Positions 18,305-37,380 of a stretch of 37,380 nt of DNA are shown in pieces (position 1 is the stretch's first letter; each line of letters opens with the position of its first letter). Source of the DNA: an uncultured Oscillospiraceae bacterium (GTDB lineage: Bacteria > Bacillota > Clostridia > Oscillospirales > Oscillospiraceae); contig CANQKZ010000012.1 in assembly GCA_947624585.1 (NCBI GenBank), forward strand, positions 1-37,380, read 5' to 3'. Below the pieces are notes generated by a model. That model saw only the letters and a program-made list of their open reading frames with translations, searched no databases and had not been told where the DNA came from. Both the position numbers and the translations under genes were made by a program.

Positions 18305-20566
18305 ACTCTGCTGCTCCTTCTTTCGGATTTTCGCCACAGTCTGCCCTGCGGTCCTGTCCTGCTTTACCCATTCTAGGGTCTGTGACTTCGCCACCCAGTT
18401 CTTCAGTGTCGCCATCGTTGTGTGGAGGGCGTCGCTCAGGGCGGAAGCTGTCATCTCTCCGTCTTCACTCAGCCGTCCGAATTCTTCGTGCATCGTCTTC
18501 AGATTTTCTTCCATCTTGCTTCTGCCGCCGGATTTGGTCTGCGGCTCTCTCCTGACGTTGACGAACCTCAGCTGTCCCGTCATATCCATCGAGTGTATCG
18601 GATACGTATACCACAGATCGACGGGATCCGGCGTCGCGAACTCTCGGAGCGCCATCTCCACCCGCCAAGCGGATGTCTTCTGGATGACTGTCTGCTGATA
18701 TTCGTACTCAGCCTGTATCTCATCGAGCCTCTGGGGGTTGTCGTAAAAGACTCGGCGGCATGCGCCCATGGCGTCGTCGAAAAAGTCGAAGTCTCTGATC
18801 TCGTCGATCGCTCCTGCCTCCTTGAGCGCGGCGCAGCAGATCTGACAGCCGGCCTGATTGAACAGCTCGTTTCTGGCAGTGATCAGCTGGTCTTCCGGGA
18901 TCTCCGTCAGGTCGACGATGGCGTCTGGGTCTCGGCCGAACACTCCGCTTCCGGATGACCGGTCGATCGCCCGCTTGCCCGTCTGAGCGCCCTTTGAGTG
19001 GTGGTGGCAGTAGATGACGGAAGTCTTCAGTTCTTTGCAGAGATCGTCGAAAAGGTTCACGAATTTAGCCATATCTGTCGCGCTGTTCTCATCGCCGGTG
19101 ATGACCTTGTAGATTGGGTCGATGATGACCGCGAGAAACTGGCCCATCCCCCTCAGCCGCGCCTTGATCTTCGGTTCCAAGACGTCCATGGGCTCAGCGT
19201 GTCCGCGCAGAGGCCAGATGTAGACGTCGTCCGGCAGATGGGAGAGCCCCATGGCGTGGGAGATCTCCTCCATGATGTGGAGCCATGAGGCGTCGTCCAC
19301 CTCGAGGTTGATATACATGACCGGGCCCGGCACACACTTGTGCCCGCACCACTCCCTGCCTGTTGCGATCGCGACAGCCAGCTCAGCCAGCAGATGGCTC
19401 TTGCCAGCCTTCGACGGCCCGGCGACCAGCATCTTGTGGCCCTGCCTCAGCACGCCTGTAATCAGCTCCGGCGCCAGAGGGGGGAGCTTGCCCTCCATAT
19501 CCGACAGCTTCACGATCTCCGGCAGAGTGTCTTCGATGTACGTCTCCTGCACCCAGCTTCGCCACTGGAAATAGGTCCTGAAGCCGATGTCTGTGGCCAC
19601 CAGATACTGCGGAGTCCCGCCCCGCATGACACCCGGAAGCCGGCTGAGCCTTGACGGGTTGCTCGCCGCCCGGTCGATGCGGAATCCGGCTTTCGCGCAC
19701 ATGTCAGCGAGGAAGCGGCGCCTCTCGTCGTAGTCCCTGCGGCCTCTGGCGTCGAGATGCACGATGGCATGCAGACTCTTTCCGCCAGAGTGCACCACTG
19801 CCGCGCAGGGGAGTCTGAGCTTCTGAATCTGGGCCCACTGCTCCTCGATCGGCATGTCATCCGCCTCGATCAGCGTGTACCTGTAGGCTGTAACGTCGGC
19901 ATCCGAATACATCTTGCCGGAGGGCCCTTCAGCCCGTACCGGGTTGATCCTGACCTGCGCTCCGTTGTTAGGGTCTTCTTCGCCGATAGCCAGCTCGACG
20001 TGATCCGGGTTGGCGCCAAGCCGCTCCAAGATGGAGTCGGCTGTCTCATGGTTCTCCCGAGCCGGGTTGTAGCGCCCGCCTTCGTCGGCCCAGAAGGCCA
20101 TCACATAGCAGATCGTCTCGCCTGACCGGAAGACAGCCTGCAAATAGCGGTCGAGATCGGCCGCCCTGTCCCATGTCTCAGGATCCGGCGGAGGAGGGAG
20201 GGGGAGTAGCCCTCTGGTAATCGGCCGCTCCGGCCTCCGCTCCGGCTCCGGGATCCACTGGAGAACCTCGCCAAGCTGAAGCTCCCGGGATCCGAGCTCC
20301 GGAGGCTTCCACCCGTGCTCCTTGGCGAGCTCGTACACGGTGCCGAGAGTCACCCGGTCGCCGTCAGCCCGTCTGAATGACGTCCACTTTTTCGCGCAGT
20401 CTCCGGGTTTGTATTTTGGCGACGTCCGGCTCCAGTCGTCCCACAGCCACAGGAGACTCTCATCCGAGTCCTTGATGGCCATGCCAACCATACACCAGTC
20501 GTCGTAGCTGTCAGCCGGGATAAAGCTCAAAGCCTCCTTCAGCCGGCTCAGTTCCAAGTCGCTCAC
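18296..20566 (-). CDS. Primase-helicase: PriCT, AEP-like and RepA-like ATPase domains
   Basis: The product is 756 residues; the start is a GTG overlapping the helicase stop. The N-terminal 80 residues match PriCT-2 (EALSFIPADSYDDWCMVGMAIK, WDDWSR, KWTSF). Residues of about 160-330 look like an archaeo-eukaryotic-type primase: VRINPV, YTLIEADDMPIEEQW, SGGKSLHAIVHL and NPSRLSRLPG. Residues of about 365-590 are a RecA-like RepA helicase with Walker A AGPSKAGKSHLL, Walker B AVIIDPIYKV and HHHSKG. The C-terminal part (MTASALSDALHTTMATLKNWVAK) is a winged-helix-like domain. It likely primes and unwinds phage DNA at the neighbouring iterons. Confidence 0.85.
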   Translation of the reverse strand: MSDLELSRLKEALSFIPADSYDDWCMVGMAIKDSDESLLWLWDDWSRTSPKYKPGDCAKKWTSFRRADGDRVTLGTVYELAKEHGWKPPELGSRELQLGEVLQWIPEPERRPERPITRGLLPLPPPPDPETWDRAADLDRYLQAVFRSGETICYVMAFWADEGGRYNPARENHETADSILERLGANPDHVELAIGEEDPNNGAQVRINPVRAEGPSGKMYSDADVTAYRYTLIEADDMPIEEQWAQIQKLRLPCAAVVHSGGKSLHAIVHLDARGRRDYDERRRFLADMCAKAGFRIDRAASNPSRLSRLPGVMRGGTPQYLVATDIGFRTYFQWRSWVQETYIEDTLPEIVKLSDMEGKLPPLAPELITGVLRQGHKMLVAGPSKAGKSHLLAELAVAIATGREWCGHKCVPGPVMYINLEVDDASWLHIMEEISHAMGLSHLPDDVYIWPLRGHAEPMDVLEPKIKARLRGMGQFLAVIIDPIYKVITGDENSATDMAKFVNLFDDLCKELKTSVIYCHHHSKGAQTGKRAIDRSSGSGVFGRDPDAIVDLTEIPEDQLITARNELFNQAGCQICCAALKEAGAIDEIRDFDFFDDAMGACRRVFYDNPQRLDEIQAEYEYQQTVIQKTSAWRVEMALREFATPDPVDLWYTYPIHSMDMTGQLRFVNVRREPQTKSGGRSKMEENLKTMHEEFGRLSEDGEMTASALSDALHTTMATLKNWVAKSQTLEWVKQDRTAGQTVAKIRKKEQQSQV

Positions 20567-23241
20567 ATCTGCATCACCTCATCGCCCGGCAGTGCCGTCA
20601 TCGGTACATACTCCGCCGGGTTGATCCCTTTTGGTACGTGCCAGTTCGCGGCGACGATCTGGCTGATCATGTTCGACGCCGCCCAGAGCGGCCACGTGCC
20701 GACATGCTTGAATCCATAGCGCTCCAGCAGTCTGATCTGCTTCGGTGACGTCAGTCCGGCCTGCCTCCGGCTCCTCAGCGTGTCCAGCAGCTTAGAGGCC
20801 ATGCCAGCGACCATGTTGCCGTCGGAGTAGATGCCGCAGGCCTCGAGAGCGTCGAGCTGGCCTTTTGACGCTGGCTTCGACTCCCAGCCGAAGGAGGGAG
20901 TGTAGTCGGCCAGATCTCCGGATTCGATGCTCAGGGCGTACTGAATTGGATCCACCAGCTTGCGCTTCCGGTTGCGCATCTCTGCCAGCTCCTTTGCCAG
21001 CGCTTCTTCACGCTCCCGGAGGGCGTCCTTCTTCGCCTCTTCCTCAGCCTCTTCGATGTCCATGGCCTCCTGCTCGCCCTCGAGGATTTCCGTCATCTTC
21101 TCCGCGATCTCCTCCGATGAGCAGATGAGATGCGCAGGGCGGCAGAGGCTGTGGCGGCTGGTATGCCACAGGAAGTCGAGCACGAGCAGATGGTCCTTGC
21201 CGTCGCAGAGTCGAGTCCCGCGGCCTATGGCCTGACAGTAGAGGCTTCTTATCTTCGTTGGCCTCAGCATCACGATGCAGTCCACAGACGGGCAGTCCCA
21301 GCCCTCCGTGAGGAGCATCGAGTTGCAGAGCACGTTGTATTTCCCTTCGTCGAACGCTTCAAGTATCTGGGCCCTGTCCTCGCTTCCGCCGTTGACTTCT
21401 GCCGACCGGAAGCCGCGGCTGTTGAGGATGTCACGGAACTTCTGGGACGTGGCGATCAGCGGCAGAAACACGACGGTCTTGCGATCCATGCAGACGCCCT
21501 TCATTTCGTCGGCGATCTGCTCCAGATACGGGTCTAGGGCGGTGCCTAAATCCGACACCTTAAAATCTCCGCTCTGCATGGCGACCTGAGTCAGATCCAA
21601 CTGCAGGGGGATAGTCAGGGCCTTGATCGGACAGAGCCACCCGTCTCGGATGGCTTCTGCCATGGTGTATTCGTAGGCCAAGCTCTCAAAGAACTTGCCC
21701 AGATTTTTCATATCGCCTCTGTCTGGCGTCGCCGTGACGCCAAGCACGTGGGCGTCTGGGAAGTGCTCCATGACCCGCAGGTACGAGTCTGACAGCACAT
21801 GGTGGGCCTCATCGACAATGATGGTCCCGAAGTAATCCGGCGGAAACGTCTCGAGTCTGGCTGGCCTCGTCAGTGTCTGCACTGATCCGACGACGACTCT
21901 GTACCAACTGCCCTTACAGCTTTGCTCAGCCTTTTCGACTGCGCAGCGGAGCCCGGTCGACCTCTGGAGCTTGTCCGCGGCCTGATCTAGAAGTTCGCCC
22001 CGGTGGGCGAGGATCAGGACGCGGTCGCCCGCCCTCACCCGGTCTGACGCAACGCTCGAAAACACGATGGTTTTTCCGCAGTTGTGCGTGATGGTGAAGT
22101 CGTCTAGGAGATAGCGGTTGTCGCCGTCCACGGTGAAGCCGTAATATGGCCCAGACTCTGCAGGTTCAACCGAAAAGCCGGTGCGGAGAACATTCTTCTT
22201 CTGCCTGCGTTCCAGAGACTGTTTTCTGGCGACTCTGCACGGAATCATGCTGCAGTTTCCGCTTATGCTGACGCGATAGTATTCGCCCTTAAACTGCTTT
22301 CCGTATCCCTTCGTGCACTTCTTTACGTATGCGGCCAGCCCACACGACCGACTGAGAAAAACGACGTCGTTCGCCAGACGCTCCGACTTTGAAATGAAGT
22401 CGTATCCGCCGCACCTTAGATGCCCGTCCGTGTCGATGAGCCCGGCCAGAACGTCCAGCCTGATATCCTTCGACGATCTGAGATAGATCTCTGGAACGAA
22501 TTTGTCGCCGGACAGCTTACCTGCAACGCCCAATTCCTTGAGGCAATTTATGATCGGAGCGCCGCCTCTTCCGCCGCCTTTCCCTTTGTCGACTGAAAAG
22601 ATGTATGTTGTCGCTTTCCCTGCCGGAACTGTCCGAAGATGCGAGTCGAATTTCTTCGCCTGCCTCTCCAGCTCTTCAACAATTTCCGGGTCTGGAGTCG
22701 TAACTGAGATTGAGTGTTTCAGGCCTCCGTCTCCGAGGAGAATTCCGAGGAAGTATGGCTCAACATAGTACGGAGGCATATACGCGCCCGGGAACTCTTC
22801 GATTCCGTCACAGCGGATTAGCTTGTGAAGGTGCTTTTGGTTTTCGCTCCAGCTGAGCCATTCCAGAACAGATACATCTACGAGTTCTCCGGCGTGCATC
22901 TGGCATGGGAATTTCGGGTTGCTATACTCGCCGGTTCTGACGAGTGTGAGTTTGTGGTCTCCCGTTACAACGAACGGATCGCCCTTGACGGGAATGATTC
23001 GATAGAGAGGGCCCGTCCCTCTGTTGATATTCAGTACGGTGCGAGGCTGTCCGTCGGCTCCAAGGAGCCTGTCTCCAAGCTGAACGTCCTCGACATTCTT
23101 TGCTTGGCCATTGGCCATGAGGACTTTCTGCCCTTCTGCGTGGCATCCTGTGGGCAGGACAAGGAGTGTCCTGTTGCACCCCTTGTCCCACTCACGAAGG
23201 ATCGCGTCCCTCGCCTCCGCCTGATACGGCCTGAGGTTCAT
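20563..23241 (-). CDS. DEAH-box helicase interrupted by an intein
   Basis: The precursor is 892 residues; the mature helicase after splicing is 537. The host protein starts MNLRPYQAEARDAILREW, then LLVLPTG joined to CGKT (Walker A), followed by LILAHRGELLDQA, VDEAHH (DEAH box), GVTATPDR, LCNSMLLTEGWDCPS and QAIGRGTRL (motif VI). This is the superfamily 2 type (UvsW/Ssl2-like) used by phages in recombination-dependent replication or fork repair. A lysine/glutamate-rich coiled coil (residues of about 735-780) and a C-terminal domain follow. The intein sits in the P-loop, so the helicase is inactive until splicing occurs. The gene overlaps the genes on both sides. Confidence 0.93.
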   Translation of the reverse strand: MNLRPYQAEARDAILREWDKGCNRTLLVLPTGCHAEGQKVLMANGQAKNVEDVQLGDRLLGADGQPRTVLNINRGTGPLYRIIPVKGDPFVVTGDHKLTLVRTGEYSNPKFPCQMHAGELVDVSVLEWLSWSENQKHLHKLIRCDGIEEFPGAYMPPYYVEPYFLGILLGDGGLKHSISVTTPDPEIVEELERQAKKFDSHLRTVPAGKATTYIFSVDKGKGGGRGGAPIINCLKELGVAGKLSGDKFVPEIYLRSSKDIRLDVLAGLIDTDGHLRCGGYDFISKSERLANDVVFLSRSCGLAAYVKKCTKGYGKQFKGEYYRVSISGNCSMIPCRVARKQSLERRQKKNVLRTGFSVEPAESGPYYGFTVDGDNRYLLDDFTITHNCGKTIVFSSVASDRVRAGDRVLILAHRGELLDQAADKLQRSTGLRCAVEKAEQSCKGSWYRVVVGSVQTLTRPARLETFPPDYFGTIIVDEAHHVLSDSYLRVMEHFPDAHVLGVTATPDRGDMKNLGKFFESLAYEYTMAEAIRDGWLCPIKALTIPLQLDLTQVAMQSGDFKVSDLGTALDPYLEQIADEMKGVCMDRKTVVFLPLIATSQKFRDILNSRGFRSAEVNGGSEDRAQILEAFDEGKYNVLCNSMLLTEGWDCPSVDCIVMLRPTKIRSLYCQAIGRGTRLCDGKDHLLVLDFLWHTSRHSLCRPAHLICSSEEIAEKMTEILEGEQEAMDIEEAEEEAKKDALREREEALAKELAEMRNRKRKLVDPIQYALSIESGDLADYTPSFGWESKPASKGQLDALEACGIYSDGNMVAGMASKLLDTLRSRRQAGLTSPKQIRLLERYGFKHVGTWPLWAASNMISQIVAANWHVPKGINPAEYVPMTALPGDEVMQM
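22081..23145 (-). mobile_element. Intein with LAGLIDADG homing endonuclease in the helicase P-loop
   Basis: Residues 33 to 387 (355 residues) form the intein. Block A begins CHAEGQKVLMANGQ with Cys1, and has VEDVQLGDRLLGADG. Block B contains VVTGDHKL (Thr and His of TxxH). Two LAGLIDADG-type motifs, YFLGILLGDGG and VLAGLIDTDGHL, mark the endonuclease. Block F/G reads NRYLLDDFTITHN, with His-Asn before the +1 Cys of the extein. All residues for splicing and both acidic nuclease residues are present, so it is probably active. It lies between G32 and C388 of the precursor, interrupting PTG/CGKT. Confidence 0.93.
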
Positions 23242-33775: not shown

Positions 33776-34636
33776 CTAGCCCGTCGCCTGTACGTCGCTG
33801 TCAGCGTCCGTCAGAAACATAGCCTTAACAGTCTCGACTGCCGCCTTGACAGCGTTGTCCCGGGCCCGGTTGGCCATGATGGCGCTTTCCAGTCTGGTCG
33901 GAAAGTCGTTCGGTCTGGTCTTGTCGGTGATGCCGTGCTCGTGCGCGGCGTCGAACTCGTCTTCGACTCCGGCCCACTTGGGCATCTCGTTGTCCGTACG
34001 TCTCTGCCGTGCCAGTTCGTCAAGTATTCTGTTGACGATGGTCGGTGTCCGCTCCTCTATGAGAGTGATGGTCTCCTCTTTGGTCAAGTCTCTTCCCTCC
34101 TCGATCTCGGATGTGATGTCTTTTGCCAGCTGCTCCTCTCGCTGGAGGAGCCAGTCGCCCGGACACGCTGTCGCGGCGAACCAGCGGTGACAGCTCAGGA
34201 TCAGGGCGTCCGCAGGCCACGCGGTATTTTGGAGCGTCCACAGATTGCCCGCGTAAATGACCCGCTTGAACCCGTACCGTCTGCAGATGTCGGCCCCCAG
34301 CCGCACCAGAGAGTCATAGGCTTCCTGATTCATTCTGTAAGGCGCGTACGTGTCGGAGGCTACCTCGACAGTGATCGCCCTGCAGTCGTTCCAGTAGGAG
34401 CTGGTCGTCCACGGAGCATTGGCCTCATCGACGTACTGCGCTATGCGGCCGTCCTTGTCGATGCCGTATGTGGAGCTGGCCCGTCTGGCTGGTCTGGCGA
34501 ACAGCTCGCCCAGAGACTCTGCCGTGCACTGTCCCACGACGCAGTGAGGCGTCAGGATCCAGATCCTCTGCCCGGCCCGGCCCCAGTAGTGGTTTGGCGA
34601 CTGTTTGACGTGGACCACGAGATCACTGCCCGTCAT
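33776..34636 (-). CDS. Endolysin: N-acetylmuramoyl-L-alanine amidase (Amidase_2)
   Basis: The product is 286 residues, ATG behind GGAGGCGAGGAC and overlapping the holin end. The amidase_2 domain shows zinc ligands His31 (ILTPHCVVGQ), His150 and Cys158 (LSCHRWFAATACPGDWL), with YGIDKDGRIAQYVDEANAPWTTSS between. The C-terminal 110 residues are helical and charged (RILDELARQRRTDNEMPKWA, ANRARDNAVKAAVETVKAMF), a probable wall-binding or oligomerisation part. It cuts the amide bond between muramic acid and the peptide at the end of the lytic cycle. Confidence 0.92.
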   Translation of the reverse strand: MTGSDLVVHVKQSPNHYWGRAGQRIWILTPHCVVGQCTAESLGELFARPARRASSTYGIDKDGRIAQYVDEANAPWTTSSYWNDCRAITVEVASDTYAPYRMNQEAYDSLVRLGADICRRYGFKRVIYAGNLWTLQNTAWPADALILSCHRWFAATACPGDWLLQREEQLAKDITSEIEEGRDLTKEETITLIEERTPTIVNRILDELARQRRTDNEMPKWAGVEDEFDAAHEHGITDKTRPNDFPTRLESAIMANRARDNAVKAAVETVKAMFLTDADSDVQATG

Positions 34637-35081
34637 TGTCCTCGCCTCCAGTCTTGTCGATCTGGTCCTTTGTGACTTTCAGCAGCTTGCGGAGCCACTC
34701 CGGCACGTCGGCTCCCATGTCCACAGCGTTCTCGGCGACGGAGCCCAGCTCGGTCACGATGTACCAGCAGAGGACGATCGGACAGACTGCGCCGGGATAA
34801 TGGATGCTGGGGATGAGGTTGTGAATCACGACTCCGAGGACCAGATCAGCGACGCCTGTCGCGCAGACCACGAAGACCATGCCGAGCTTATGCAGGATTC
34901 CCTCCCGAGCCAGCTTCGAGGACCAGTCGCCCTTGGCGCAGGCCGCCATGGTCCCTGTCACGTAGTCGAGCATCATGCAGACCAGCCAGCAGACGACGAG
35001 CCACCCCATCCAGCCCCAGAAGCCTGTCAGGGCCCCGACGACGGCAATCACTGCCGCCTTGATGTCGTCCAGTCTGTCCAT
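34623..35081 (-). CDS. Holin (toxin-secretion/phage-lysis holin family)
   Basis: The product is 152 residues, ATG overlapping the XkdX stop (TAATG). It has three or four membrane segments: WGWMGWLVVCWLVCMMLDYVTGTMAA, GMVFVVCATGVADLVLGVVIHNLI and GAVCPIVLCWYIVTELGSVAENAV, with the conserved DYVTG-x-x-x-A and K-x-x-x-GxxxK parts of this holin family, and a charged cytoplasmic end. It forms membrane holes that release the amidase. The order XkdX, holin, amidase is standard in Firmicutes phages. Confidence 0.9.
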   Translation of the reverse strand: MDRLDDIKAAVIAVVGALTGFWGWMGWLVVCWLVCMMLDYVTGTMAACAKGDWSSKLAREGILHKLGMVFVVCATGVADLVLGVVIHNLIPSIHYPGAVCPIVLCWYIVTELGSVAENAVDMGADVPEWLRKLLKVTKDQIDKTGGEDNDGQ

Positions 35082-35209
35082 TATTCCACCTCCGGCCCGC
35101 AGATCTGAATGGCCTGCGCGCGCGTGATCTGCCGCTTGTCCACGGCGGCCCAGACCTGCTCAGCGGTCATCTTGCCGAGTCGGTACATGTTGCGGATGAA
35201 GTTGAACAT
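35081..35209 (-). CDS. xkdX: XkdX-like small protein, 42 residues
   Basis: A short gene from ATG 35209 to TAA 35081. The product reads MFNFIRNMYRLGKMTAEQVW and AAVDKRQITRAQAIQICGPE, matching the XkdX pattern (F-x-x-I-x-x-x-Y-x-x-G-x-x-t-x-e-q-v, V-x-x-x-x-I-t-x-e-q-y). XkdX lies between baseplate-type genes and holin in PBSX-like elements; its role is unknown. Confidence 0.78.
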   Translation of the reverse strand: MFNFIRNMYRLGKMTAEQVWAAVDKRQITRAQAIQICGPEVE

Positions 35210-35520
35210 TACATGTCGCCTCCCATCATCATGATCATGACCATCTCCTCCAGACTGTTGACTCTGTCAGTGATGGTCGGCTCCGGTTCGTCCGGGTTGT
35301 AGGTCTCTCCGTAGGACCACCAGTCGTCGGTGTTGGCCTCCTCCGGAGTCAATGTCTGATCCGTCCAGAACAGCACCTCGTCATAGCGGTACTGTGTGCC
35401 GCCCTCACTGTCCGTCTCCTCCGCCTCGTTGCGGCGGATCCGGACCCAGTATCCGCCCGCGTGGTCGTCCTCTACCACACAGGGCTCCAGTTGCGTCGTT
35501 GCGTAGCATGGGTTAAGCAT
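35209..35520 (-). CDS. Baseplate/tail-associated protein (XkdW-like position)
   Basis: The product is 103 residues, acidic, starting inside the reverse transcriptase end. It begins MLNPCYATTQLEPCVVEDDH, has WVRIRRNEAEETDSEGGTQYRYDEVLFWTD and a C-terminal helix ending MVMIMMMGGDM. The place before XkdX is that of XkdW in PBSX, but the sequence match is weak. It is coupled to XkdX. Confidence 0.6.
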   Translation of the reverse strand: MLNPCYATTQLEPCVVEDDHAGGYWVRIRRNEAEETDSEGGTQYRYDEVLFWTDQTLTPEEANTDDWWSYGETYNPDEPEPTITDRVNSLEEMVMIMMMGGDM

Positions 35521-36763
35521 ATCTCTTTAGCGCCTCCTGTCTTATCCGTGTCTGCCGCCTTGACCACCAGCCGATGGATGCGGCGCAGAGTGTCTTGAGT
35601 CTTGCCACGTCGTACGACTCCTTGAGAGTCTCGGACGTGCTCTGCTTGATGTTGCCGTAGTAGGCCATTACTCTCTGGGCCCTGACATGACAGATACCCG
35701 TCTTGCGTCTCCGCTCCGCCCGGATCAGGGCCCTCCGTGCCTTCTTGAAAATGCGCGGCCGGATCGTGATGTATGAGCGATGCATCACATACCCGCCCAT
35801 ATCGAGTCCCGGACAGCCTCTGCCAGCTGGTGACTGAGCCTTGCGCCTTGCATGCTCCTCTTGGAATGGAAGGAAGCGGATCACCTTAAAGCTGTCCTTC
35901 CATTCCAGTCCGAGAGGTTCCATCCACCTCCCGGTCGCCCTGAGCGCCTTCTTCAAGTCAGCGAGTCTGGTTCCAAACACCGCCACGTCATCCATGTACG
36001 ACTGTATGGCCTTGACCAGCCGGATGTTTTTGCCGCGCCTCATCTTATACTGGGAGAGCAAATAGTTCAGAACGTGACTCATCACGTAGTTGAACATCCA
36101 CGCGTCCAGATAGCCTCCAATAATGAGGTGTCCGCCCGGAGCCAGACGCCCGAGGCCATCTACCAGCCTGTGGACTTTACGCGCGCGCGGCAGATCACGC
36201 CTTAGGAGCATGAGGACGATCGTGTACATCGTGCTCTCATATGCCTTATGTACGTCAGCCTGCACAGCTTCTCGCGCCGTCTTAACTCCTTTGCGCAGGA
36301 GCTTGTACGCCTGATCCTTCAGTCTGGTCTGTCCGTGTCCGGGAATTGAAGCGTGTTGAAACGGCAGGAGCCTCGCCATGAGCATCGGCCGGAGAGCCAG
36401 ACAGACCACATGGCCATAGATCTGGTGGAACGGATCCATCATGCAGATGTTGCGTGTCTTGCCCGAGAGTCCGTCGACGCGCGGGCGGATCAGAACGGGA
36501 TTGACGCCCAGATCCTCCACGTCGTCGGACTCCAGAAACGCCTCGATACGATTCTCTACCTCGAGTGCGATCGCGTTGGCGGCCTCTACCTGATAGTGCA
36601 CCTCATTCAGCGCGCGTTGGTGCATCATCTCTTTGATCGGGATCCCTGCGTAGATCTCGATCATGCGGACATGATCTGACCGCATCCATTTACCCTCGAA
36701 GTTGTCCATGATCGCCTTGACAATGAGATCGTGGTCCTGAGGATCTAGAAATCGTTGCTTCAT
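35513..36763 (-). CDS. DGR reverse transcriptase
   Basis: The product is 416 residues with AAAGAAAGGG before the ATG. It has the polymerase motifs: IRPRVDGLSGKTRNICMMDP near 92-111, AVQADVHKAYESTMY (Asp170, motif 3/A), GGHLIIGGYLDAWMFNYVM (about 210-228, motif 4/B), SYMDDVAVFG (Asp258-Asp259, motif 5/C) and GGYVMHRSYITIRPRIFKKARRA (thumb). The motif 4 residues IGGY match gut DGR reverse transcriptases, but the usual SQ is replaced by DA. Together with the template and variable repeats upstream it makes cDNA of the template with adenine-directed errors. It is cotranscribed with the lysis genes. Confidence 0.93.
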   Translation of the reverse strand: MKQRFLDPQDHDLIVKAIMDNFEGKWMRSDHVRMIEIYAGIPIKEMMHQRALNEVHYQVEAANAIALEVENRIEAFLESDDVEDLGVNPVLIRPRVDGLSGKTRNICMMDPFHQIYGHVVCLALRPMLMARLLPFQHASIPGHGQTRLKDQAYKLLRKGVKTAREAVQADVHKAYESTMYTIVLMLLRRDLPRARKVHRLVDGLGRLAPGGHLIIGGYLDAWMFNYVMSHVLNYLLSQYKMRRGKNIRLVKAIQSYMDDVAVFGTRLADLKKALRATGRWMEPLGLEWKDSFKVIRFLPFQEEHARRKAQSPAGRGCPGLDMGGYVMHRSYITIRPRIFKKARRALIRAERRRKTGICHVRAQRVMAYYGNIKQSTSETLKESYDVARLKTLCAASIGWWSRRQTRIRQEALKRYA

Positions 36764-37014
36764 CTATAACCCTTTCTTTAGTTCAAGATCGTTCGGTTAA
36801 CGGGGAGCCTTAAGGCAGGTTCCCACGAGTATTACTACTAGACCCCACATAAGCCCACGGCTTATGCGCCCGCTTTTCCAGCGAGTGCCGGTATCCCTCG
36901 ATTTTAGGTTTCACCCATGGATACGGCGGTGCAAGCTTATCAGTTGTCAGTTGAAAGCATCGGCAGAGGAAATGAAAAGGTTATAGTATCTGCGATACCG
37001 TACCTCCGCCGTGA
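36764..37014 (-). ncRNA. Spacer RNA between template repeat and reverse transcriptase
   Basis: This 251-bp stretch has no convincing gene. It contains CATAAGCC-CAC-GGCTTATG (36848-36866), the palindrome GCCTTAAGGC (36807-36816) and a long-range pairing of CCGCCGT (37006-37012) with ACGGCGG (36923-36929). In the Bordetella phage DGR the corresponding spacer folds with TR RNA and primes cDNA synthesis, so the same role is likely. Confidence 0.6.
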
Positions 37015-37165
37015 AGAAAGGCGCGGGGAGCCATTCCAATTGCCCGTCGAAGGCGCATTGTTACCATTAAGCGCGGCGAGCCCCGTCCACGCGCCATCAT
37101 TGAGATTAGCGCGGCGCCACGGAACGCGCACACCGGTACCATTGGAGCCATTGAACCCCGACGCA
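37015..37165 (-). other. DGR template repeat (TR)
   Basis: On the minus strand this reads, in the frame of the variable repeat, like VPWRRANLNDGAWTGLAALN and GNNAPSTGNWNGSPRLS with nine AAT/AAC codons, the arrangement that yields NNY codons when adenines are mutated. Bases 37015-37090 match 37305-37380 except at nine positions, all adenines here. The 3' end is at about 37015, where the copies diverge. The 5' limit is uncertain, because the matching part of the variable repeat is outside the window. It is not translated. Confidence 0.88.
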
Positions 37166-37216
37166 CCGCCTAAATACCCGAACGCGAAGAACTGCGTGAA
37201 CTATTGATATCAGTAT

Positions 37217-37230
37217 TCCACCTGAGTGGA
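37217..37230 (-). other. Small hairpin between target gene and template repeat
   Basis: TCCAC-CTGA-GTGGA (37217-37230) is a five-base-pair stem located between the DGR hairpins and the template repeat. It may belong to the 5' end of the template RNA. Confidence 0.5.
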
Positions 37231-37241
37231 TGTCCTCCAAT

Positions 37242-37259
37242 AGGGGGCTTGCGCCCCCT
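37242..37259 (-). promoter_or_regulatory. GNRA-loop hairpin downstream of VR (DGR targeting element)
   Basis: Minus strand AGGGGGC-GCAA-GCCCCCT: seven perfect pairs and a four-base GNRA loop, ten bases past the target stop codon. In the Bordetella phage system a GC-rich hairpin or cruciform of this design downstream of the variable repeat is needed for efficient retargeting. Confidence 0.78.
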
Positions 37260-37263
37260 CTGT

Positions 37264-37277
37264 CGGCCTTACGGCCG
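37264..37277 (-). promoter_or_regulatory. Second GNRA-loop hairpin overlapping the target stop codon
   Basis: Minus strand CGGCC-GTAA-GGCCG: five perfect pairs with the loop GTAA, which contains the stop codon TAA of the target gene. It lies four bases from the larger hairpin. It may be a second targeting element or chance. Confidence 0.6.
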
Positions 37278-37380
37278 CCATTCACCCCTCATTTTCCCGG
37301 CCCCAGAAAGGCGCGGGGAGCCATACCAAGCGCCCGTCGAAGGCGCAATGAAACCAAGAAGCGCGGCGAGCCCCGCCCAC
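37269..37380 (-). CDS. DGR target protein C-terminus with variable repeat (partial)
   Basis: The frame enters from the right edge and ends at TAA 37269-37271. The visible residues read WAGLAALLGFIAPSTGAWYG and SPRLSGAGKMRGEWRP. Bases 37305-37380 are the 3' part of the variable repeat. The aligned template residues TGLAALNGNNAPSTGNWNG show that Asn-coding positions (AAY) became Leu, Phe, Ile, Ala and Tyr. The fold of such C termini is usually C-type-lectin-like, exposing the variable residues. The full gene, probably a tail fibre or adhesin, lies outside the window. Confidence 0.85.
   Translation of the reverse strand, partial: WAGLAALLGFIAPSTGAWYGSPRLSGAGKMRGEWRP

Follow-up and report, generated by a model that had tools for sequence, protein, structure and literature searches.

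The end of this phage contig almost certainly carries a phage-encoded diversity-generating retroelement (DGR), a divergent member of a well-known kind and a bona fide one. The window, that is the whole stretch of 37,380 nucleotides analysed here, is contig C12 of a 3.28-Mb assembly of 290 contigs, and a phage contig with gene matches to tape measure, terminase, primase, helicase, holin and endolysin. A first-pass annotation had read a DGR from the sequence; its reading is upheld by adenine-only changes in a stretch of the repeat that it had not seen, by an open frame through the variable repeat (VR), by the grouping of the reverse transcriptase (RT) with DGR RTs and by the same cassette at related loci. 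On the minus strand, the target gene 3' end with the VR is followed by a 142-nt spacer, the template repeat (TR), a 251-nt spacer and the RT (Table 1). The 103-aa ORF directly after the RT has no family match in family-profile searches and is at most a candidate member of the cassette. Elsewhere in the window, the frame of the helicase gene (20563-23241, minus strand) also contains matches to Hint and LAGLIDADG domains, and the gene probably carries an intein with a homing endonuclease.

Table 1. Features of the retroelement region and of a second DGR in the same assembly
Feature	Position	Strand	Basis or remark
Target gene 3' end	37269..37380	-	Translation; stop codon (37269-37271) lies in the first hairpin's loop
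VR, 3' part	37305..37380	-	Alignment to TR; 5' part is C218 bases 1-67
GGGTGAAT block	37280..37287	-	17 nt 3' of the VR end
Inverted repeat CGGCC-GTAA-GGCCG	37264..37277	-	After VR; candidate target-site hairpin/cruciform
Inverted repeat AGGGGGC-GCAA-GCCCCCT	37242..37259	-	After VR; candidate target-site hairpin or terminator
TR, 148 nt, 22 adenines	37015..37162	-	Aligned to VR and C218:1-67; adjoins RT
TR-RT spacer, 251 nt	36764..37014	-	Probably forms the 3' portion of the template RNA
Stem/RGUA...GAA element	36784..36847	-	Scan score 6/6
DGR-type RT, 416 aa	35513..36763	-	Profile matches, motifs, tree
103-aa ORF directly after RT	35209..35520	-	ORF list
Second DGR, contig C6	L050:181-289 (TR); 305-691 (Avd-like); 855-963 (VR)	- (Avd-like)	RT at C6:51567-52535 (-)

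Repeat pair and target gene

The annotation had aligned positions 37015-37090 and 37305-37380 without gaps over 76 nt and had placed every difference, read on the minus strand, on adenines of the first copy. Both statements were confirmed. The copies are 88% identical at a spacing of 290. The first is made up of 12 A, 24 G, 23 C and 17 T, and all 9 differences are at its adenines (five A>T, two A>C and two A>G), with none on its other 64 bases. This placement has P = 1.5e-9 when differences are placed at random over the aligned sites. The repeat is longer than the 76 nt first noted: cut by the end of the window, it resumes on another contig of the assembly, C218, whose first base is the equivalent of TR position 37096. 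The restriction to adenines that had been predicted for an extended repeat holds there, with 6 differences over TR 37096-37162 (67 nt, 10 A), all at adenines and 0/57 at other bases. Both VR parts together have 15/22 template adenines and 0/121 non-adenines changed (P = 2.2e-15), in a VR pieced from two contigs in which the 5 bases between them (TR 37091-37095, no A in the TR) are missing from the counts. The TR end at 37162 is our choice of boundary, set there because the first non-adenine mismatch lies at 37163, where similarity stops. Over the final 20 nt of the repeat (37015-37034) the two copies do not differ, which leaves no IMH/IMH* difference to name. The ORF list has no minus-strand ORF of at least 70 aa in the TR region. 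Searched against its own genome, the TR has three strong places, namely itself, the VR and C218 bases 3-67; the assembly search gave no further VR, the six other TR matches being only 14-20 nt long with E of 0.83 or worse.

Duplication of a gene 3' end can also yield two copies 290 bp apart, and such a paralogous repeat could diverge by chance or selection without any relation to the RT. We give this explanation a negligible probability: the adenine restriction of the differences, with P about 2e-15 for the two parts combined, leads us to reject chance duplication, and the pattern recurs beside 11/13 related RTs and beside 0/18 RTs with a QGxxxSP motif.

The DGR reading assigns the diversified residues to the target gene. 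As annotated, the VR lies in an open target frame at its 3' end and the TR adjoins the RT; the amino acid changes had also been read correctly, TR L-N-G-N-N-A-P-S-T-G-N-W-N-G-S standing against VR L-L-G-F-I-A-P-S-T-G-A-W-Y-G-S. The target protein comprises 540 aa encoded on C218:1-1620 (minus strand) and 36 aa in the window up to the stop, the 5 bases between being absent. Its part on C218 matches PHROG phrog_17147, of unknown function (E 3e-90). For a C-type lectin domain, Pfam gave no match in the target and phmmer against the PDB only matches at E 0.83 or worse. C218 is 4,444 bp long, with the target gene running to the contig edge; its other genes are one with a tail-fibre PHROG match, one matching only an unknown-function PHROG and a fibre gene that encodes an S74 chaperone domain. 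The target, a tail-region protein, most likely binds the host surface, with a putative role as receptor-binding protein.

The first 55 bases of the window occur twice within the last 150 of C218 (L011:4295-4444), inside the fibre gene; the ends of the two contigs have no exact overlap. With this recurrence at the far ends and the continuation of the VR, the contigs look like one phage genome that the assembly would have split at two places, a tandem repeat and the VR, and C218 would adjoin the window.

Reverse transcriptase and related loci

The RT matches PHROG phrog_1423 (reverse transcriptase) with E 8e-26, Pfam RVT_1 with 25.2 bits, below the 29.6 cut-off, and PADLOC weakly as an RT; NCBIfam gave no match, and neither did the PDB by sequence at E up to 1. 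The catalytic residues D170 and YMDD 256-259, with the YxDD motif, are intact. In an IQ-TREE phylogeny of 26 RTs the 23 DGR rows, window included, split from three QGxxxSP rows with support 100/98, in a tree whose outgroup is these three rows and in which one row has a very long branch. The DGR rows include BPP-1, hankyphage p00, crAssphage LMMB and Faecalibacterium phages. The window RT is sister to that of L020 (MT836832.1) with support 100/100, and both belong to a seven-row group (100/100) whose other members are all human-faecal phage records.

Motif 4 of the window RT reads IGGYLDA: IG is kept, DA stands in place of SQ and the (I/V/L)GxxxSQ consensus is not matched. This consensus is found in 18/23 DGR rows of the alignment, QGxxxSP in the three non-DGR rows, and the other deviants among the DGR rows are L024 (IGSYLSC), L029 (IGFFPSP) and csAssE (IGTPTSP). 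In the DiGReF collection SQ ends motif 4 in 90% of 155 DGR RTs, and the last two residues vary in 15/155, as SP, SH, NQ, PA, AQ and VQ; DA is absent from that variant list (PMC3521204). The same report mentions that the SQ dipeptide was once proposed as setting adenine-specific fidelity (PMC3521204).

A dead or dormant DGR, whose RT no longer works after the change from SQ to DA and whose adenine differences date from earlier activity, would agree with the rarity of IGGYLDA, found only in the window and L020 among the 26 aligned RTs. This possibility is unlikely. The RT frame is intact and the catalytic Asp is kept, and the 0 non-adenine differences in 121 TR/VR sites speak for little drift since the last retrohoming. 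Furthermore, the sister L020 has DA as well and 7/7 of its differences at A over 75 nt of VR, which argues that the DA change arose long ago and still allows function. We infer a DGR that would be active now. As a separate observation, the RTs of L024, L027 and L031 read YMDN instead of YxDD and their TR/VR differences are still 14/14, 10/10 and 15/15 at A; both aspartates are given as 100% conserved in DiGReF (PMC3521204).

The comparison with related phages that the annotation had called for gave the same cassette. Eleven of 13 related-RT loci (L019-L031) have VR-TR-RT in which template A accounts for 75-100% of the differences (7/7, 15/18, 20/20, 14/14, 14/14, 12/12, 15/15, 10/10, 17/17, 11/11 and 15/15); no repeat pair was found at L019, a weak RT match, and L030, whose RT is at a contig edge. 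The VR lies in an open frame ending in it or at most 37 nt from it in 10/11 of these loci, the exception being L020, which lacks a frame through the VR because the record starts in the VR. A pair is also present beside 16/21 DGR-type RT loci of a second set that counts L051, the same place as L026 (L055, L056, L059, L062 and L064 are without), beside 9/10 reference phage DGRs (L045 is without) and beside 14/20 DGR-type RT loci of a later set. QGxxxSP (group-II-type) RT loci have an adenine-biased pair in 0/10 cases and, in the later set, in 0/8, some control and test loci offering little upstream DNA (e.g., 158 nt for L078 and 193 nt for L105).

The closest RT is that of MT836832.1 (39.6% identity) and the closest target gene that of MT835925.1 (L032; 46.5%), both unannotated human-faecal phage records. 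MT836832.1 begins inside its VR and MT835925.1 stops near the C-terminus of the target; judged from these ends, the two records may stem from a single phage that, like the present one, was split at the VR. Peptide-pattern scans of viral contigs with the RT or the target found no near-identical phage, nor did a DNA search of phages with positions 34500-37380, and a genome-contig search for relatives returned one weak match, L019, which is without a repeat pair.

No Avd was found in the window or C218 by a 5-member Avd profile or PF05635, nor in L020-L031 by the profile built from the five annotated Avd proteins; as a control, the profile recovers all five of the proteins it was built from and, as a weak match, one in phage VHML. 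According to a survey of complete genomes, 62% of DGR RTs co-occur with Avd_like (PMC8934634); Avd is not required of all DGRs. The only PF05635 match of the assembly is a gene on contig C6, which holds a second, Avd-bearing DGR with 13/13 TR/VR differences at template adenines. Its RT lies at the opposite contig end from its TR, Avd-like gene and VR, so that C6 is probably a circular phage contig. The existence of this second DGR-type RT raises the question of whether it, rather than the adjacent RT, serves the repeats of the window, which is very improbable: the C6 RT is accompanied, at the C6 ends, by a TR, an Avd-like gene and a VR of its own; outside C12 and C218 the genome gave no further long match to the window TR; and a DGR RT usually serves the template next to it.

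Signals after the variable repeat and an RNA element in the TR-RT spacer

Counting the window, 6/7 rows of the RT clade have the GGGTGAAT block 16-24 nt after the VR, and 0/7 have it in the 120 nt that follow the TR. Some records have multiple copies, four in 13 kb of L022 and two in L023. We infer a target-site role for GGGTGAAT, which could instead be a ribosome-binding-like or terminator-linked word. Inverted repeats follow the VR at 27 nt (5 bp, GTAA loop), 45 nt (7 bp, GCAA) and 74 nt (5 bp, TCAG). In BPP-1, efficient homing is reported to need a GC-rich hairpin after the VR, with a GRNA loop common to phage DGRs, and the criteria given for such a hairpin or cruciform are a 7-10 bp GC-rich stem, a GRNA loop and a distance of 4-34 bp from the VR (PMC3240598). 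None of the three inverted repeats here combines such a stem, loop and distance. The GTAA and GCAA loops are of the GNRA rather than the GRNA type, and the likeness to the BPP-1 hairpin is therefore one of position and shape. An inverted repeat of at least 5 bp with a 4-nt loop at most 150 nt from the VR is found in 8/12 elements, a GTAA or GCAA loop in only 4/12 (window, L020, L021 and L031).

Retrohoming of the window DGR would begin with transcription of the TR-spacer-RT region from the minus strand. The RT would copy the TR RNA to cDNA with misincorporation opposite adenines, a step proposed because the TR/VR differences are adenine-only, and the cDNA would then take the place of the VR in the 3'-terminal part of the upstream tail-region gene. 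Homing would be guided most likely by the near-identical 3' end of the repeats together with the GGGTGAAT/hairpin region, found after the VR and not after the TR. The TR AAY codons would thereby give varied residues near the target C-terminus.

The TR-RT spacer (36764..37014) is predicted to fold more stably than its shuffles (z -2.2; 3/200 shuffles as stable); Rfam gave no match over 36600-37380. It contains, in order, a stem arm (36840-36847), AGUA (AGTA, 36836-36839), an inner hairpin region, GAA (36792-36794) and the other stem arm (36784-36791), all on the minus strand. The RGUA/GAA internal loop would be of the bulged-G (sarcin-ricin/loop E) type. A scan asking for RGTA...GAA, a closing pair inside and 5/6 pairs outside, with a score of at least 5 as positive, was applied to spacers of other DGRs. 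The AGTAG word was first spotted by eye in relatives of the window, and the discovery counts are thus those of the set that suggested the element: 13/20 spacers of DGRs without an Avd match are positive (shuffled mean 0.48), or 13/23 once three first-omitted Avd-less DGRs are added (L043, score 2; L060, 3; L072, 1). The low discovery rows are L023, L027 and L038 (4 each), L058 (2), L031 and L057 (1 each) and L028 (none); crAssphage L042, among the 13 positives, scored elsewhere than at the place picked by eye. The first Avd-positive DGR spacers gave 0/15, in rows of which VHML (L046) has a weak Avd match in one scan and none in another, and two others have short spacers (L041, 34 nt; L047, 14 nt); non-DGR RTs gave 1/8.

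In held-out loci, fetched afterwards by a phylum-wide search, the element is present in 8/14 DGR spacers with a TR/VR pair versus 4/172 other stretches of the same loci, a figure free of score selection. Other stretches of the discovery loci are positive in 13/796 cases and antisense spacers in 0/14 (held-out) and 0/20 (discovery). The held-out spacers split into 7/12 with Avd (shuffled mean 0.33) and 1/2 without (shuffled mean 0.04), the Avd-positive carriers not being independent events because their RTs are alike (mostly IGNLTSQ). Among the other held-out loci, DGR-type RTs with neither pair nor Avd gave 1/4, those without a pair but with Avd 0/2 and QGxxxSP RTs 1/8 (shuffled mean 0.2). We had considered the element as a marker of Avd-less DGRs, an idea rejected by its presence in 7/12 held-out Avd-positive DGRs.

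The stem arms pair with their own partner in 110/120 cells and with arms of other elements in 61%, and exchanges between elements include G-C, C-G and A-U pairs. These pair counts lean towards structure, since their rows, 14/20 discovery rows chosen by anchors and 10 held-out rows mostly scoring at least 5 (L093 scores 4; L083 is without a pair), were partly picked by anchors or score. The BPP-1 spacer is described as folding into a structure that recruits bRT-Avd and holds the priming adenine (PMC12875486); by analogy, the spacer element would belong to a docking structure like that of BPP-1. No DGR paper on such an RNA motif is among the matches listed by a literature search, outside which the main structural study of the BPP-1 template RNA lies.

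Two broader propositions come out of these comparisons, and the chance that both hold appears to us slightly less than even. The DGR template RNAs of many phages, that of the window included, would share a TR-RT spacer element, made of a covarying stem closed by a bulged-G-type RGUA...GAA internal loop and a variable hairpin cap, whose role would be RT docking or primer positioning, both in the presence and in the absence of Avd; and the RT lineage with DA for SQ would keep adenine-specific mutagenesis.

Comparison with known systems

With 31,007 DGRs reported from public metagenomes (PMC8144416), the DGR of the window is one of tens of thousands, and its DA motif and spacer element are the parts worth following. 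The DA lineage is a natural test of the proposal that SQ sets adenine fidelity; if it does keep adenine-specific mutagenesis, SQ is not what confers this specificity. The recurring spacer element offers a concrete RNA feature on which RT docking could be tested in DGRs, Avd-less ones included. The locus also illustrates how DGR phages get cut in assemblies, the window contig ending inside its VR just as the nearest RT record begins inside its own.

That nearest record, MT836832.1, shares with the window DA in motif 4, the GGGTGAAT block, the GTAA hairpin and the spacer element, whereas both MT836832.1 and MT835925.1 are far diverged from it and carry a partial cassette each. The DGR of Bordetella phage BPP-1 (mtd-avd-TR-brt) has the same order of target/VR, TR and RT. 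Adenines account for 94% of its 18 TR/VR differences, its VR also occupies the 3' end of a tail gene, and an inverted repeat likewise comes after this VR. The window differs from BPP-1 in that no avd was found, in loops GTAA/GCAA rather than GRNA and in motif 4 (IGGYLDA versus IGSLTSQ), and the BPP-1 spacer lacks the stem/RGUA...GAA element in the scan. CrAssphage LMMB, hankyphage p00 and Lactobacillus phage LBR48 resemble the window in having a DGR RT without an Avd match in the stretch examined, and the first two also in a TR/VR pair with the TR upstream of the RT; all three are set apart from it by an SQ motif and distant RTs.
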